Source of the DNA: Candidatus Latescibacterota bacterium
Lineage (GTDB): Bacteria > JAAXHH01 > JACQVL01
Reading direction: 5' to 3'
Assembly (NCBI GenBank): GCA_016209865.1
Contig: JACQVL010000311.1
Location: 1 to 15,600 of the forward strand
DNA length: 15,600 bases
The notes beneath the pieces are model-generated. The model was given only the letters and a program-made list of their open reading frames with translations. It made no database searches and was not told the DNA's origin. Below, piece after piece: positions 115 through 8,189 of the stretch. Each line of letters begins with the position of its first letter. Positions within the stretch are counted from its first letter, which is position 1. The translations under genes were made by a program, and so were the position numbers.

Positions 115-1063
115 CCTGGTCATCGTGACGATCACCATCCTGCTGATGGGTGGGGGGAAAATCGAGTTGTTTAAAGACAAAATCCCCTACAGGACGTTCT
201 TCCCCGACGCGAACGGCCTGAAGGCCGGGTCGGAGGTATGGCTGGCGGGCGTAGAGATCGGTCAGGTCAAATTCGTCCGGTTCTCCGACACACGGGGCCG
301 CAACGCGATCGAGGTCGTCCTTGAAGTGGATGTGACGGCCCGGAACCGCATCCGGACGGACTCCGTCGCCAGTCTCCGCACGATCGGGCTGCTCGGCGAC
401 AAGTACGTGGAACTGACGCCAGGAACCCTGGACGTGCCCACCATCCCGCCGGGCGGCATCATCAAAGGACTGTCGCTCAGCCCGTTCGACGAGTTGATCG
501 GGGTGGGCAAGAACACCGCGCAGGGGTTTAACGACCTGATGGTGCAGCTCCAGCAACTCGCCACGAACGCCACCCAGGGGGAAGGCTCGATCGGGAAGCT
601 CATCCAGGACCCGGAACTCTACCGGAACCTCAACACGTCCGCCCAGCAGACGTCGAAGCTGATCGAGACGGCCCAGAGCGGGCCGGGGACGATGGGACAG
701 TTGATGTCCAACCCTGCCCTCTACGATAACCTGATGACGTCGTCATCGACGCTGCGGGAAACAGTCACCGCGGGCCGGAGGACGGTCGCGTCGACGGATT
801 CGCTCATCCGGGAACTCCGGCGGGCCGAAGGGACGATCGGGAAGCTGGCCACCGACCCGGCGCTGTACAACCAGATGGAAACGACCTTGCTGCGCCTGGA
901 TGGACTCCTCAGAAAGATGGAGCGCGGCGAGGGCACGGTCGGCCGACTGACCCAGAAAGACGCGATCGCTCAAGAAGCCGAAGGACTGTTGATCGACCTC
1001 CGTTCGCTCGTCAATGACATCAAGCAGAACCCCAAACGGTATATTAAGGTGAGTGTGTTTTAA
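53..1063 (+). CDS. mlaD: MlaD/MCE family lipid-transport substrate-binding protein
   Basis: This 336-residue protein is the membrane-anchored, periplasmic MCE component of an Mla-type phospholipid transporter, which moves lipids between the inner and outer membranes with an ABC ATPase and permease. One N-terminal membrane helix lies at about residues 13-33. The MCE domain follows (about 45-121), with the family signature around YRTFFPDANGLKAGSEV and the V-x-L-x-GV-x-IG-x-V turn. From about 145 to the end the chain is helical and carries four copies of a short motif (G-E-G-T/S-I/M/V-G-K/Q/R-L) at about 176, 210, 258 and 292; the first three continue into D/N-P-x-L-Y. The end (DIKQNPKRYIKVSVF) is typical of MlaD in FCB-type bacteria. 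AGGAGG at 39-44 sits 8 bases before this ATG and supports the start. It overlaps the preceding ATPase tail, as expected for translational coupling. Confidence 0.9.
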   Translation: MEAKKTVTWKDLKVGLLAASSLVIVTITILLMGGGKIELFKDKIPYRTFFPDANGLKAGSEVWLAGVEIGQVKFVRFSDTRGRNAIEVVLEVDVTARNRIRTDSVASLRTIGLLGDKYVELTPGTLDVPTIPPGGIIKGLSLSPFDELIGVGKNTAQGFNDLMVQLQQLATNATQGEGSIGKLIQDPELYRNLNTSAQQTSKLIETAQSGPGTMGQLMSNPALYDNLMTSSSTLRETVTAGRRTVASTDSLIRELRRAEGTIGKLATDPALYNQMETTLLRLDGLLRKMERGEGTVGRLTQKDAIAQEAEGLLIDLRSLVNDIKQNPKRYIKVSVF

Positions 1064-1067
1064 AGGC

Positions 1068-1218
1068 AGTGACGAGTGACAAGTGACGAGTAAAAAATAA
1101 AAGAAGGCTCAGGTTGAGGTTTAGGTTGAGGAATGACCAAAAGTTTTGAACCTCAGCCTTAATCTCAACCTTCTGTTTACTCGTCATTTGTCACTCGTCA
1201 CTCGTCACTCGTCACTAC
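1068..1218. repeat. Large nested inverted repeat built of 7- and 6-base units
   Basis: The whole gap between the mlaD-like gene and the peptidase gene is a palindrome. The outer arms, 1068-1094 and 1176-1202, match at 26 of 27 positions as reverse complements and consist of an AGTGACG heptamer. The right arm continues with more TCACTCG units to 1218. The inner arms, 1102-1131 and 1151-1174, consist of a GGTTGA-like hexamer and pair less well: six-base AGAAGG outer match, then 15 of 18 after one extra left-hand hexamer. The loop holds CAAAAGTTTTG. No T-run follows the right arm, so it does not look like a standard intrinsic terminator on the plus strand. RNA from here could fold into a long hairpin before the peptidase ribosome binding site at 1221-1227. 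Its origin is unknown. Confidence 0.85.
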
Positions 1219-1231
1219 TTAGAGGAGTCCT

Positions 1232-3253
1232 ATGTCCCATCGCCCTATCGTTCCCCAAGACCTCTTCCGCCTCCGGTTCGTCTCCGACCCGCAGATGAGC
1301 CCGGACGGGCGGATGATCGCGTTCGTCGTCAAAGCGGCGAATGAGGAGAAGAACAAATATTATTCCCATCTTTGGGTCGTTCCGGCTGACGGGGAAGACG
1401 TGCGCCCGTTTACGACGGGAGAGCAGCAAGACTCGTCCCCGCGCTGGTCGCCCGACGGCCGGCAGATCGTGTTCATCTCGGACCGGAAGAAGCCCGGTCT
1501 GCAGCTCTTCCGCATCCGGCTGGACGGCGGAGAGGCGCAGCCCCTGACCGCCCTCGACGAAGGGACGATCTCCGACCCGGTCTGGTCGCCCGACGGGTCG
1601 CGGGTTGTGTTCGTCTACCGGCCGGCGCCGGAGGGCTTCCGGAAGAACGATGAAGAGGAACGCAAGGAGTCCGGCAAATCGACCCCGCCCCGCCTGATCA
1701 CCCGTCTGCGGCACCGGGAGGAAGGAGTCGGGTACTTCGGGCCTGAACGGACGCACCTCTGGGTGGTGACCGTGGCGGACGGGACGGCGACGCCGATCAC
1801 CTCTGGCTCTTACGATGACCGGGCTCCCTGCTGGTCGCCGGATGGGCAGCTCATCGCGTTCGTCTCCAACCGCTCGGAGGACGCCGACCGGCGACCGAAT
1901 GCCGAGGACATCTACCTGGTGTCTGCGCACGGTGGGCACGTCCGGAAACTCCACGCGCCGCAGGGGCCGAAGGCCAGCCTCGCCTGGTCGCCCGATGGAC
2001 GGCTGATCGCGTACATCGGCCACGATCGTCCGGATGAGGTCTGGGGCGTCAGCAACGCGCACGTCTGGGTCGCTCCGGTGGCCGGGGGAGACGCGGCCGA
2101 CCTCACCGCCGACCTCGACCGGCCGGTGGGCGACACCATCCTGAGCGACACGGTCGCGTTCGGCGGCGGCTGGCCGGGCCCGGTCTGGACGGACGACAGC
2201 CAGTCTCTCTCGTTCATCGTGAGCGATCAAGGGAGCGTCCATCTGTACACAGCGTCGCTCGACGGCGGCGCTACGACCCCGCGCACGGCCGGCCCGATCG
2301 AGGTCGCCGCGGTCACCGGCGACCGGACGGGCCGCCGGCTGGCGCTGCTCATCGGGAACGCGACCGAGCCGGTCGAGGTACACACCCTGTCTCTCGATGG
2401 ACAGCCCGCCGCGCCCGTCCGCCTGACCGACCTGCACCGGGCGTTCCTGGACGAGGTGCATGTCGCCGCTCCCGAAGAAGTTTGGTTTACGGCTGACGAT
2501 GGCGTTCGAGTCCAGGGATGGCTGCTCGTCCCGCCCGAGTTCGACCCGGCGCGCTCGTACCCGCTCATCCTCGAAATCCACGGCGGGCCGCACTCGCAGT
2601 ACGGCCAGGCGTTCTTCCATGAATTCCAGGTGCTGGCCGGACGCGGCTACTTCGTCTTCTACACCAACCCGCGCGGGAGTAAGGGCTACGGAGAAATGTT
2701 CACAGGGGCGATTCGGGGGCACTGGGGCGAGCGGGATTATCAGGACTTGATGAAGGGGATGGATGATCTCCTCGCCACGCGCCCGTACATCGACACGACG
2801 CGTCTGGGGGTGACGGGCGGGAGCTATGGCGGGTTCATGACCAACTGGATCGTCGGCCACACCGGGCGATTCCGGGCCGCCGTCACCCAGCGGAGCGTCG
2901 TTAACCTCCACAGCATGGCCGGGACGTGCGATTTTCCGCTCCTGCAGGACAAGGAATACTTCGACGCCAACGCCTGGGACGCGCCGGGTGAGTTCTTGCG
3001 GCAGTCCCCGCTCACGTATGCGGCTCACATCCGGACACCGCTGCTCATCCTCCACAGCGAGGGGGACCTCCGGTGCCCGATCGAACAGGCGGAGCAACTG
3101 TTCACCGCGCTGTCCGTGCTTAAGCGGGAGGTGACGTTCGTCCGGTACCCGCGCGAGGCGAACCACGGCCTGTCCCGCTCCGGCCCGCCCGACCTACGGC
3201 TCGACCGGCTGGAGCGGATCGTGGGATGGATGGAGCAGTATTTGAAGAGTTGA
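1232..3253 (+). CDS. S9 family serine peptidase (prolyl oligopeptidase / acylaminoacyl-peptidase type)
   Basis: This 673-residue enzyme has the two-part layout of the S9 family: an N-terminal beta-propeller with repeated WSPDG blades (roughly residues 15-400) that restricts access to short peptides, and a C-terminal alpha/beta-hydrolase domain (about 410-673). The nucleophile motif GGSYGG places the catalytic serine at Ser531; Asp612 (HSEGDLR) and His645 (EANHGLS) complete the triad with the usual spacing. The oxyanion-side motif HGGPH is present near residue 450. No signal peptide or membrane helix is visible, so a cytoplasmic role in peptide turnover is most likely. The start is supported by AGAGGAG at 1221-1227. 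It is followed after 21 bases by the aldo/keto reductase on the same strand. Family assignment is firm; the exact subfamily and substrate are not determined. Confidence 0.93.
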   Translation: MSHRPIVPQDLFRLRFVSDPQMSPDGRMIAFVVKAANEEKNKYYSHLWVVPADGEDVRPFTTGEQQDSSPRWSPDGRQIVFISDRKKPGLQLFRIRLDGGEAQPLTALDEGTISDPVWSPDGSRVVFVYRPAPEGFRKNDEEERKESGKSTPPRLITRLRHREEGVGYFGPERTHLWVVTVADGTATPITSGSYDDRAPCWSPDGQLIAFVSNRSEDADRRPNAEDIYLVSAHGGHVRKLHAPQGPKASLAWSPDGRLIAYIGHDRPDEVWGVSNAHVWVAPVAGGDAADLTADLDRPVGDTILSDTVAFGGGWPGPVWTDDSQSLSFIVSDQGSVHLYTASLDGGATTPRTAGPIEVAAVTGDRTGRRLALLIGNATEPVEVHTLSLDGQPAAPVRLTDLHRAFLDEVHVAAPEEVWFTADDGVRVQGWLLVPPEFDPARSYPLILEIHGGPHSQYGQAFFHEFQVLAGRGYFVFYTNPRGSKGYGEMFTGAIRGHWGERDYQDLMKGMDDLLATRPYIDTTRLGVTGGSYGGFMTNWIVGHTGRFRAAVTQRSVVNLHSMAGTCDFPLLQDKEYFDANAWDAPGEFLRQSPLTYAAHIRTPLLILHSEGDLRCPIEQAEQLFTALSVLKREVTFVRYPREANHGLSRSGPPDLRLDRLERIVGWMEQYLKS

Positions 3254-3280: not shown

Positions 3281-4210
3281 ATGCAATACCGCTTACTCGG
3301 CAAGACCGGCCTTGAGGTCTCCACGATCAGCATGGGGTGTTGGGGCATCGGCGGCCAGTGGGGGCCGGTGGAGGAATCGCAAGCCCTTCAGACCATCCGG
3401 CGCGCGGTCGAAGTGGGGATCACGCTGTTCGACACGGCGGACGCGTACGGAATGGAACCGGGGTACAGTGAGGAGGTCGTCGGCAAAGCGCTTCACGAAA
3501 TCCGCGGTCGCGTGCTGATCGCCACGAAGGTCGGCAACTTCGCCCGCCGGTTCGGCCATCCGCTCCCGTACACTACCCCTCACCATATCTACCTCTGCTG
3601 TGACGCCAGCCTCTACCGGCTGCGCCGGGATGTCATCGACCTGTACCAGTGCCACATCGGCGGCCTGGAAGACCCGACCCTGTTCCTGGAGGCGTTCGAG
3701 CGGCTGAAGGAGCGCGGGAAAATCCGGGCGTACGGCATCTCCACGAACGACCTCGACGCCCTCCGCCGGTTCAACCAGCAGGACACCTGCGGAGCCTGTC
3801 AGCTCGACTACAGCCTGCTCAACCGGACTCCGGAGCAGGACATCCTCCCGTACTGCCAGGAGCAGAACATCGGGACGCTCATCCGAGGGCCGCTCGGCAT
3901 GGGCGTGTTGACTGGGAAATTCACCCCTCAGACGGTGTTCACGGATGAAGTCCGGCAGGGCTGGAACGACGGGGAAGGCCGGGAGCGATTCCTCAAGCGT
4001 CTCTCCTACGCGGAGCGGGTGCGGTTCGTCGAGCGGCCGGGACGGACGCTCGCCCAGGCGGCGCTTCAGTTCGTCCTCGCCCATCCGGCGGTCTCCTGCG
4101 CGATCCCCGGCGCGAAGAGCCCGGAGCAGGCAGAAGCCAACGCGAAGGCAGCAGACGGCTCGTTCACGGCGGAGGAGATGGAGCGGATCAATCGAACCGG
4201 GACAATGTAA
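3281..4210 (+). CDS. Aldo/keto reductase
   Basis: This is an NADPH-dependent aldo/keto reductase of 309 residues that folds as a TIM barrel and reduces aldehydes or ketones; the substrate cannot be read from sequence. The N-terminus MQYRLLGKTGLEVSTISMG is characteristic. The catalytic tetrad is complete, numbering from the ATG at 3281: Asp51 and Tyr56 in FDTADAYG, Lys83 in ATKVG, and His125 in YQCHIGG. The C-terminal cofactor segment (CAIPGAKSPEQAEANAKA) is also present. An ATG at 3275 would add two residues but is too close to the ribosome binding site. The gene sits 27 bases after the peptidase and 16 bases before the radical SAM gene, consistent with one transcript. Nothing in the protein links it directly to the neighbouring functions. 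Confidence 0.93.
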   Translation: MQYRLLGKTGLEVSTISMGCWGIGGQWGPVEESQALQTIRRAVEVGITLFDTADAYGMEPGYSEEVVGKALHEIRGRVLIATKVGNFARRFGHPLPYTTPHHIYLCCDASLYRLRRDVIDLYQCHIGGLEDPTLFLEAFERLKERGKIRAYGISTNDLDALRRFNQQDTCGACQLDYSLLNRTPEQDILPYCQEQNIGTLIRGPLGMGVLTGKFTPQTVFTDEVRQGWNDGEGRERFLKRLSYAERVRFVERPGRTLAQAALQFVLAHPAVSCAIPGAKSPEQAEANAKAADGSFTAEEMERINRTGTM

Positions 4211-4214
4211 GGAC

Positions 4215-4220
4215 GAAGGA
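4215..4220 (+). promoter_or_regulatory. Ribosome binding site supporting a GTG start for the radical SAM gene
   Basis: GAAGGA ends 6 bases before GTG at 4227. The open frame extends upstream to 3945, but that part overlaps the aldo/keto reductase and encodes an Arg/Ser-rich low-complexity stretch typical of an out-of-frame shadow, so the GTG is the better start. Confidence 0.6.
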
Positions 4221-4226
4221 CGAACA

Positions 4227-5535: not shown

Positions 5536-8064
5536 ACTGCCAGTCTTGCCCACTAAATCCGTCATCGGCTGCTCAATACGGCCTTCGAGCGAGACCATCC
5601 AGAGATTTCTTCTTCGCTCTCCGGCTCCGATGAAATAGACTGTCTTCCCATCGGGCGACCATCGTGAATACAATATGGAACCTTCCGTCAACTGTTCTGG
5701 ATCGCCTCCCATCGCCGACACCCGCCACAGACAACCCTCTCTTGTTCTAGCTGAGCGGAAGGCGAGCCATTTCCCATCCGGCGACCACTGGGGGAAAAGA
5801 TCATCCGTGGGATGCACTGTTATTCCCCGTGTTTCACCACCATCCGACGGAATGACCCGGATATCAAAGTTCCCACTCTGGATTGAATGAAACACGATCT
5901 GCCTTCCATCCGGAGACCAGTCAGGGGCGCCCTCATACGCCTCATGCTGCGTGATCGGTCGTGCTCGCCTACCATCCGCCAACATCACCCACAGATCGTA
6001 GTTCCCGTTCCGATTCGAGTTAAAAACAATCTTCTGTCCATCCGGAGACCAAGACGACATCCAGTCCGACGCGGGATCTGTTGTGAGCTGCTGAGGTTTT
6101 CTGTCGTTGACCGGCATCACCCACAGGTCCTGGTTTCCGCTTCGATCCCAACTGAAGAGCAAGCGACGTCCATCCGGTGACACATCCACAAACTCGATGA
6201 ACGCCTCCTCAAATGTCAATTGTTCAGCATCTTCCCACGTCGCCGTGCGACCTTTAAAAATCGGGATGCGCCACAGATTCGATACTTTCCGACCTTTTGA
6301 ATACGCCAGCTTTGTACCATCTCGCGAAAAGATCGCGGACCGGATGCCAATTCCTGTCGTCACCGACTGGGGCTGTCCTACCGGTTTACCATCATTCCCG
6401 ATTCTCTGCTGCCAGAGGTCCATGCTCCCTCCACGATTCGAGACGAAGTAGAGGTATCGTCCATTGTTCGACCAGGTCGGGCTTCGGTCATTAAATCGCC
6501 CATCTGTCACAGGAAAACCCTTCCCATCCGCGGCTCGCATCACCCATATTTGCGCAGCCTGCACTAAGGTCCCCACAGTTTCTACATAGGTAAAGTAGCG
6601 TCCATCTGGACTCCAATTCAGGTCGAATCGGCTGGTTCCTCGTCCCGGGAGCAGTAACCTTTGGGATTGACCGGTACGAAGGGACAGAATTTCGACAAAT
6701 AATCCGGTGGTATCGCGGACCACACAGGCTAGCTTCTCCCCATCTCCCGACCACTGTGGAGGATTTTTGCCCCCACCCGTTATCACTCCAGGTATCATTT
6801 TACGCGGACTTCCCCCTAATGCCGATACGACATAGTACCCTCCATCATCCCGATCCGACCAAAACGCAATCTCACGTCCATCGGGTGACCAGCTGGGCAA
6901 GACGTCAGTTCCTGTGTAATCCGCCGTCAAGTTCAAAGCTGATCCACCACCTACCTGTGTCACCCAGATGTCCACGTTCCCACTCTGATCCGACTGGTAC
7001 GCCAGTCGCCCTCCGTCTGACGACCAGGTGGGCGCGTCTTCTACCCCGATGGTTGCAGTGAGCTGGGTGGGACGAGTCAGACGAGGCACCGTCTCGCCCG
7101 GTCGCAAGAACAGATATCCGAAGATCGCCGCCACGATCACGAACGCCGCTACTCCCGCGAGAAGCCAGCTCTTAGACCACCACGTCGCCCGCACCGGCGA
7201 CTGGCCCGGACGCGCCGGCATCGTCACCGTGCTCTTCTCGCTGTCCTCCGATTCCCGCTGCACCCGCCGCACTTCTGAGAGCAGATCGGCCACGGTCTGG
7301 TAGCGGTCGTCCGTCCTCTTCGCCAGCGCCCGCGCCACGATCCGTTCCAGCACCAGCGGCACCCCGGTCCGCAGGCCCGACATCGGCACCGGGTCGGCGT
7401 TGGCGATGGCGGCCAGCAGCGCCTGGTCGTGCTCCCCCCGGAAGGGCAACAGACCGGTGATCATCTCGTACAGCACCACCCCCAAGGCCCAGATGTCCGT
7501 CCGGTGATCCACCTCCTCCGCCCGCGCCTGCTCCGGGGACATGTACGCCACCGTCCCTAAGGTCGTCCCGACACGGGTCAGCTTCGGCTGTCCGGCCAAT
7601 TTCGCCAGCCCGAAGTCGACAATCTTCACCAGACGGTCGGTCGTGAACATCACGTTGGCCGGTTTGATGTCTCGGTGAACGATGTGCGCCTCGTGCGCCT
7701 TGGCCAGGCCCTGGGCGATCTGGACGGCGATGTCGAGCGCGTCATCGACGGACAGCGGCCCGCGGGCGATCGTCTTCTTCAGCGTCTCGCCCGGATAATA
7801 GGCCATGACGATGAACAGGTGGCCGTCGCTCGTCTCGTCGATCTCGTGGATCGTGCAGATGTTGGGGTGATCCAGGGCGGACGCGGCTTTAGCTTCCTGC
7901 ATGAAGCGTTGCTTGGCGTCAGAGTCGCGGGTCAGCTCCGGGGGGAGAAACTTGAGGGCGACGAAGCGGTCGAGGCGAAGGTCGCGGGCCTTATAGACGA
8001 TGCCCATGCCGCCCCCGCCGAGGTGTTCAGTGATCCGGTAGTGAGAGATCGTCTGACCGACCAT
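5437..8064 (-). CDS. Transmembrane Ser/Thr protein kinase with PD40 beta-propeller
   Basis: This 875-residue receptor-type kinase has a complete N-terminal cytoplasmic kinase domain (about residues 9-265): glycine loop GGGGMG at 16-21, ATP-binding Lys38, helix-C Glu57, HRDIKPAN with catalytic Asp132, DFG at Asp150, and SPE at 176-178. A single membrane helix lies at about 300-320. The rest, about 335-875, is extracytoplasmic and built of PD40/WD40-like blades with about eleven WSPDG-type motifs, as in TolB and related sensor kinases. It probably senses an extracytoplasmic ligand and phosphorylates cytoplasmic targets. The frame is open upstream to 8253, but that part translates a dispersed repeat, so MVGQTISHYRI at 8064 is chosen. 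The propeller half is visibly less GC-rich than the kinase half. The gene converges with hicB and the hicA remnant without any gap. Confidence 0.93.
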   Translation of the reverse strand: MVGQTISHYRITEHLGGGGMGIVYKARDLRLDRFVALKFLPPELTRDSDAKQRFMQEAKAASALDHPNICTIHEIDETSDGHLFIVMAYYPGETLKKTIARGPLSVDDALDIAVQIAQGLAKAHEAHIVHRDIKPANVMFTTDRLVKIVDFGLAKLAGQPKLTRVGTTLGTVAYMSPEQARAEEVDHRTDIWALGVVLYEMITGLLPFRGEHDQALLAAIANADPVPMSGLRTGVPLVLERIVARALAKRTDDRYQTVADLLSEVRRVQRESEDSEKSTVTMPARPGQSPVRATWWSKSWLLAGVAAFVIVAAIFGYLFLRPGETVPRLTRPTQLTATIGVEDAPTWSSDGGRLAYQSDQSGNVDIWVTQVGGGSALNLTADYTGTDVLPSWSPDGREIAFWSDRDDGGYYVVSALGGSPRKMIPGVITGGGKNPPQWSGDGEKLACVVRDTTGLFVEILSLRTGQSQRLLLPGRGTSRFDLNWSPDGRYFTYVETVGTLVQAAQIWVMRAADGKGFPVTDGRFNDRSPTWSNNGRYLYFVSNRGGSMDLWQQRIGNDGKPVGQPQSVTTGIGIRSAIFSRDGTKLAYSKGRKVSNLWRIPIFKGRTATWEDAEQLTFEEAFIEFVDVSPDGRRLLFSWDRSGNQDLWVMPVNDRKPQQLTTDPASDWMSSWSPDGQKIVFNSNRNGNYDLWVMLADGRRARPITQHEAYEGAPDWSPDGRQIVFHSIQSGNFDIRVIPSDGGETRGITVHPTDDLFPQWSPDGKWLAFRSARTREGCLWRVSAMGGDPEQLTEGSILYSRWSPDGKTVYFIGAGERRRNLWMVSLEGRIEQPMTDLVGKTGSLGYALATDGHYLYFTWEEEIGDLWVMDVEKEK

Positions 8065-8124: not shown

Positions 8125-8151
8125 TGGATTCCCGCCTTCGCGGGAATGACA
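8125..8151. repeat. dRS3-like dispersed repeat, copy 1
   Basis: Perfect 8-base arms ATTCCCGC (8128-8135) and GCGGGAAT (8140-8147) flank a CTTC loop, with TGG before and GACA after. This matches the widespread ATTCCC…GGGAAT repeat known as dRS3 in Neisseria and seen in many other genomes. A second copy lies at 11063-11090 in the same orientation. It falls in the presumed leader of the kinase transcript. Its translation on the minus strand gives the familiar spurious HSREGGNPG peptide. Confidence 0.85.
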
Positions 8152-8189
8152 ACAGGGAGATCGTGCGTCACGTGAGTGAACGTGAGAGC

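Follow-up and report, generated by a model that had tools for sequence, protein, structure and literature searches.

What kind of sequence occupies the gap between two genes as a palindrome whose outer and inner arms are built from short tandem repeats of different lengths, and does it serve the genes around it, arise on the spot, or represent one copy of something dispersed? The question is raised by a locus in a Candidatus Latescibacterota bacterium, within a stretch of 15,600 nt that was analysed as a whole and is called the window here. The structure is a strong nested palindrome at 1068-1216, which occupies the gap at 1064-1231.

Structure of the palindrome

The gap and its edges contain the following features:

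1061..1063, + strand: stop codon of the MlaD-domain gene (53-1063), left edge of the gap
1068..1094, + strand: left outer arm, AGTGACG AGTGACA AGTGACG AGTAAA, with its AGTGAC end 5 nt past the stop codon
1111..1131, + strand: left inner arm, hexamer AGGTTG x3.5
1138..1148, no strand: central palindrome CAAAAGTTTTG, near the centre of the element
1151..1171, - strand: right inner arm, a degenerate reverse complement (18/21)
1176..1216, - strand: right outer arm, the reverse complement of the left array plus two heptamers, with its AGTGAC end toward the downstream gene start
1232..1234, + strand: start codon of the S9 peptidase gene (1232-3253), right edge of the gap

The outer arms (1068-1094 and 1176-1202) match at 26 of 27 positions, and the right side extends two heptamers past the match to reach 1216; as arrays of period 7, they comprise 3.4 copies on the left (1068-1091) and 5.4 on the right (1179-1216). 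The palindrome begins 5 nt past the stop codon of the MlaD-domain gene and ends 15 nt ahead of the peptidase start, with the GAGGAG-like ribosome-binding site of the peptidase gene immediately outside it. The first-pass annotation, made from the sequence alone, had correctly described the nearly perfect outer arms of AGTGACG, the small palindrome at the centre and a gap filled from end to end. It had also described hexamer inner arms; these are clear on one side only because, opposite the period-6 array of 3.5 AGGTTG copies on the left (1111-1131), the right arm (1151-1171) is degenerate and matches at 18 of 21 positions. The palindrome is far above chance expectation, with an inverted-repeat score of 24 against a maximum of 11 among 500 shuffles, and folding it as RNA, as had been proposed, gave a very strong structure (-85 kcal/mol, shuffled mean -39.7, z -11.1). 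The hexamer of its core is rare, with 11 overlapping matches at six places in its own genome, including one inverted pair (on C349), and no match in three other carrier genomes.

Elsewhere in the window, a heptamer array of AAGGACG (4209-4224, 2.3 copies) fills another gap, flanked by ORFs that we named by eye as aldo/keto reductase-like and radical-SAM-like; AAGGACG also makes full palindromes in other parts of this genome. At about 8130-8175, a minus-strand kinase/PD40 ORF carries an N-terminal extension, HSREGGNPG, that looks like a translated ATTCCCGC..GCGGGAAT palindrome, and the real start of this ORF is probably near 8064. Palindromes of this type, which we take to resemble the dRS3 of Neisseria, number 18 in 245 kb of the same genome (stretches L009-L028), and for 10 of these an AGTGAC array lies no more than 150 bp away.

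Dispersal within the genome

The first-pass annotation suggested a dispersed element and named the lack of any other copy, together with no conservation in close relatives, as what would argue for a chance local duplication. Other copies do exist: the genome, of 3.75 Mb, contains 472 exact sites of the 12-mer AGTGACGAGTGA, as compared with 0 for the reversed control. Copies were examined over 245 kb of stretches picked for containing AGTGACG; rates from this sample are therefore biased, and unselected rates were taken from a Pyrinomonadaceae genome, G049. The sample holds 53 arrays of 2-5 units with a common consensus and fixed ends, in which AGTGACGAGTGAC(A/G/C)AGTGACGAG is preceded by [GT]C and followed by (T)AAAA; in short form, AGTGACG...GACGAG lies between these same borders. 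Nearly all of them (51/53) are intergenic by our gene calls or overlap the end of a gene. Some arrays are single and others form inverted pairs that bracket the entire gap; in several gaps they are nested with a second heptamer (GGTCGGT/ACCGACC or AGGGGTC/GACCCCT) and with a CATTCCCGC..GCGGGAATCC palindrome that occupies the centre. Since interiors vary among copies and many arrays are single, what moves in this genome may be the array alone instead of the complete palindrome. The order of AGTGACX variants agreed only moderately from arm to arm (0.67 vs 0.50, p=0.003, a comparison biased by the choice of arms), and arm identities across elements, being affected by register, were set aside.

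Polarity and position at gene edges

The arrays have a polarity with respect to genes: the AGTGAC end abuts a gene edge, either a stop or a start, and the opposite end points toward the gap. This was seen in three independent sets, with 28 of 35 arrays in the window's genome, 82 of 91 in Pyrinomonadaceae (p=7e-16) and 62 of 79 at loci of other phyla (p=4e-7). Arrays of at least three units contain TGA in all three frames, and the neighbouring gene terminates within the array in 11 of 25 same-strand cases from the window's genome. In gaps with period-7 palindromes, the outer end of the palindrome lies at a median of 2 nt from a stop codon and 18 nt from a start codon; array-to-gene distances are approximate because the genes were called with our own simple caller. 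Palindromes are somewhat rarer between divergent genes (2/21 vs 34/160, small numbers). This positional bias may come from short operon gaps being the sole place that tolerates insertions.

Distribution across phyla

The exact 23-base pattern AGTGACGAGTGACNAGTGACGAG, with a chance expectation that we estimate at about 0.03 in random sequence, matches at least 114 stretches of GTDB reference genomes, spread over more than 12 phyla. Among the matches listed, carriers belong to Chloroflexota, Acidobacteriota, Nitrospirota, Verrucomicrobiota, Bacteroidota, Kapabacteria and others. A 20-base pattern yielded 491 and 458 matches in two Pyrinomonadaceae and from 2 to 400 in other carriers. With hundreds of copies in its own genome and kin in so many phyla, dispersal far exceeds what had been suggested. 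Relatives from the order of the window's species, to which the search for arrays was also to extend, lack AGTGACG or hold at most one site, and the distribution is therefore patchy. In IMG/VR, AGTGACG had 24 matches and permuted-heptamer controls 5 and 2, so viral contigs are truly, though moderately, enriched in it. AGTGACN arrays in Ignavibacteria, Kapabacteria and Chloroflexota (L065, L093, L118, L061) are long, with 10-29 units, and do not share the fixed start that arrays have in the window's genome.

A period of seven in intergenic gaps

Tandem tracts in the gaps of the window's genome and of Pyrinomonadaceae occur at lags 7, 14 and 21 and at few others, with coding and shuffled controls near zero, and the dominance of these lags persists after AGTGAC is masked. 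With the same masking, loci of other phyla contained 85 tracts of period 7, versus 4 of period 6 and 16 of period 8. Altogether, 91 heptamer classes were found over 168 loci. In 300 kb of G049, a stretch picked regardless of heptamer word, lag 7 was detected in 45 of 152 gaps, and 34 of those 45 were palindromic (Fisher 4e-13). Lag-7 gaps numbered 0/20 in E. coli and, among relatives from the window's order, 0/58 in G002 and 11/73 in G013, a third relative (G001) being without usable gaps. In 2007, Mrazek et al. (cited through PMC4679880) noted that, of the longer simple repeats in bacteria, heptamers are the most frequent.

Turnover at orthologous gaps

Turnover of the word was observed in a phylum other than that of the window's species, among three congeneric Pyrinomonadaceae (G039, G040 and G049) that are syntenic over 114 kb and share about 86-96% identity (G039 vs G040 ~95%, G049 ~86%). 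At the same junctions, these genomes have palindromes of different heptamers, or none:

Gap 67830: AGTGACG in G039 and G040; AACGATG in G049
Gap 94496: AGTGACG in G039 and G040; AACGATG in G049
Gap 98608: GGAAACA in G039; GGAATGC in G040
Gap 111060: AGTGATG in G039; TTGTCCG in G040
Gap 112913: no gap in G039; GTTTCAA palindromes in G040 and G049
Gap 32420: TTGTCAG in G039 and G040; a 24-bp gap in G049

Swaps were read from the sequences and not from counts, because the automatic 'same class' counts split variants of one word, such as AAGTGAC and ACGAGTG. Two gaps of G039 (103531 and 112913) are clean and empty; in each case one species of the three lacks the palindrome, and a deletion may be the reason. 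At site 6386 of G039 (C10), an AACGATG palindrome encloses a TTGTCAG one, and in G049 the AACGATG palindrome stands by itself; the inner boundary TTTTCAGTTCATCG is kept at this site, and the younger palindrome therefore sits in the loop of the older one, a single case of nesting. One genome uses at least eight words. By eye, Pyrinomonadaceae copies with the same word share loop sequence (for example, TTAAAGAAC in GTTTCAA elements and TAAAGACAA in AACGATG elements), and an A-rich, AAAGA-like inner boundary is common to several words. The first-pass annotation had raised a possible recombination or replication hotspot; the high rate of change at orthologous gaps is compatible with instability in a general sense.

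A repeat of ~130 bp, partly palindromic (L224:19679-19809, in G039 C10), is present at dozens of places in the three congeners and is apparently an AATCGTG-type heptamer palindrome.

Origin of the palindromes

Could such palindromes be born where they stand? Slippage with a preferred step of 7 nt would build an array, and template switching templated by a hairpin would copy the other arm, with mobility unneeded. The persistence of period 7 through about 90 words fits a mechanism that gauges length and not sequence, the two arms tend toward a common variant order, and, according to PMC4679880, Mrazek et al. (2007) proposed a 7-nt polymerase contact. However, hundreds of sites carry the same word with fixed end points, the identical 23-mer occurs in many phyla, loops are specific to each family and both arms have switched to another word at orthologous gaps, so that we regard local birth as possible but doubtful. 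Slippage had been put forward as the way in which the repeats grow; a change in array length is plausible, given the 2-5 units per array, but slippage alone is insufficient, as it leaves unexplained the fixed array ends, the gene-edge polarity, the conserved loops and the heptamer swaps. A role in RNA, with an intercistronic hairpin terminating, stabilising or gating transcripts (as a terminator, a REP-like 3' end or a peptidase leader), would suit the very strong fold, the position of palindromes right at stop codons and their scarcity, on small numbers, between divergent genes. Selection at the RNA level should nevertheless favour G-U mismatches, and the arms in co-directional gaps have 146 G-U versus 162 A-C (p=0.39), hence no sign of RNA-level stem selection; moreover, an Rfam search of the window gave no match to any structured RNA family, and the presence of palindromes varies between congeners whose genes are intact. 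The structured leader first suggested is disfavoured by this lack of a G-U excess and by the occurrence of the same palindromes between genes of all orientations, and we consider any RNA function unlikely. An intrinsic terminator was not supported: the pooled arms have no G-U excess, and the window palindrome is followed by ACTTAGAGG, with no T run.

The likeness of word and polarity in unrelated phyla would be expected if a protein common to those phyla recognised AGTGACN repeats near gene edges and selection made or kept them. Nonetheless, the word is entirely different between congeners at the same orthologous gap, at least eight words occur within one genome and sister taxa in the window's order are virtually without AGTGACG, which leaves conserved binding sites with very little probability. 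Hardly more probable is a classical MITE or REP, that is, terminal inverted repeats moved by a DDE transposase or a RAYT. It would explain inverted ends, dispersal and intergenic position, but many arrays are unpaired, the arms are tandem heptamers of many unrelated words and no target-site duplication was seen by eye in about nine pairs of copies from the window's genome. Y1_Tnp (RAYT, PF01797) was found neither in that genome (83% complete) nor in G039 and G040, and this absence from three carriers weakens the RAYT version.

Copying into gene junctions accounts best for the full set of facts. We thus propose, with a probability of roughly 0.55, that the window contains one of the copies of a palindromic, non-coding DNA element that is dispersed over the genome, is copied into gene junctions, nests and turns over. 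The arms of the element would be arrays of a 7-base word, here AGTGACG, and at the junction it would reach from the stop codon of one gene, where its outer end lies, to just before the ribosome-binding site of the next. A putative agent acting in trans would make copies of a palindrome or array, and each new element would come from the insertion of such a copy; new palindromes could land in the loops of older ones, producing concentric arms with different words, like the hexamer core in the window. Slippage would lengthen and shorten the arms, and old arms would decay or be deleted, so that the word at a gap would change and position and architecture would stay. We infer insertion as the copying step, the trans-acting agent and slippage; neither an insertion event nor a target-site duplication nor a mobilising gene turned up for these palindromes. 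A tolerated DNA parasite or by-product is a likelier description of the element than a regulatory RNA. More speculatively, and improbably in our judgement, heptamer-armed hairpins might form a widespread, exchangeable class, produced in many phyla by one shared machinery that gauges a length of 7 nt irrespective of the word, writes the palindromes at the stop codons of genes and exchanges one word for another at a given junction.

Period 7 is almost the sole tandem period of gaps in two unrelated lineages, where it is linked to palindromes at stop codons. The word swaps between congeners offer a natural time series for following the birth, nesting and loss of elements, which makes the question of slippage or mobility testable. 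With repeats in ~30% of the sampled intergenic gaps of one genome, these elements are also relevant to annotation, promoter prediction and assembly.

Relation to known repeats

The window feature belongs to a known kind, the intergenic heptameric repeats, with a new word and a very wide distribution. REP, BIME and REPIN sequences are short intergenic palindromes with hundreds of copies, often near stop codons and linked to RAYTs; the elements described here are likewise short intergenic palindromes in hundreds, but differ in their tandem-heptamer arms, their many words and the absence of RAYT from three carriers. The STRR of heterocystous cyanobacteria are tandem heptamers dispersed between genes, as are our arrays, with other words. 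Searched for the array sequences, the open-licence literature yielded no paper. Nesting and the swap of words between congeners appear to be undescribed among such papers, to which the search was confined, so their novelty is not proven.

TAACTGA direct repeats of Beggiatoaceae, Cyanobacteria and Bacteroidetes are intergenic heptamers of 2-6 units, mostly just upstream of start codons and in forward orientation, with only one indirect repeat (MacGregor 2015, PMC4679880). Our arrays share with them the heptamer, the few units, the intergenic position, the scatter over phyla and stops in three frames in one orientation, but have a different word and form palindromes. A close likeness is also found in Xanthomonas (GGGAATC) and Nostoc (GGGGA(C/T)T), written jointly as GGGNATC, whose intergenic heptamer arrays clearly prefer four units, occur as inverted pairs (70-75 per genome in Xanthomonas) and lie closer to the 5' neighbouring ORF regardless of its orientation (Rehm et al. 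2015, PMC4692102). The AGTGACG arrays are also tandem 7-nt units in few copies, over-represented between genes, nearer the 5' neighbouring ORF whatever the strand and found as convergent inverted pairs, with the same polarity. A G-quadruplex repeat was rejected for AGTGACG, which is a different word without a run of at least three G. Finally, the type of repeat at a gap was usually kept between two Xanthomonas compared (PMC4692102), whereas the Pyrinomonadaceae congeners swap the word itself.
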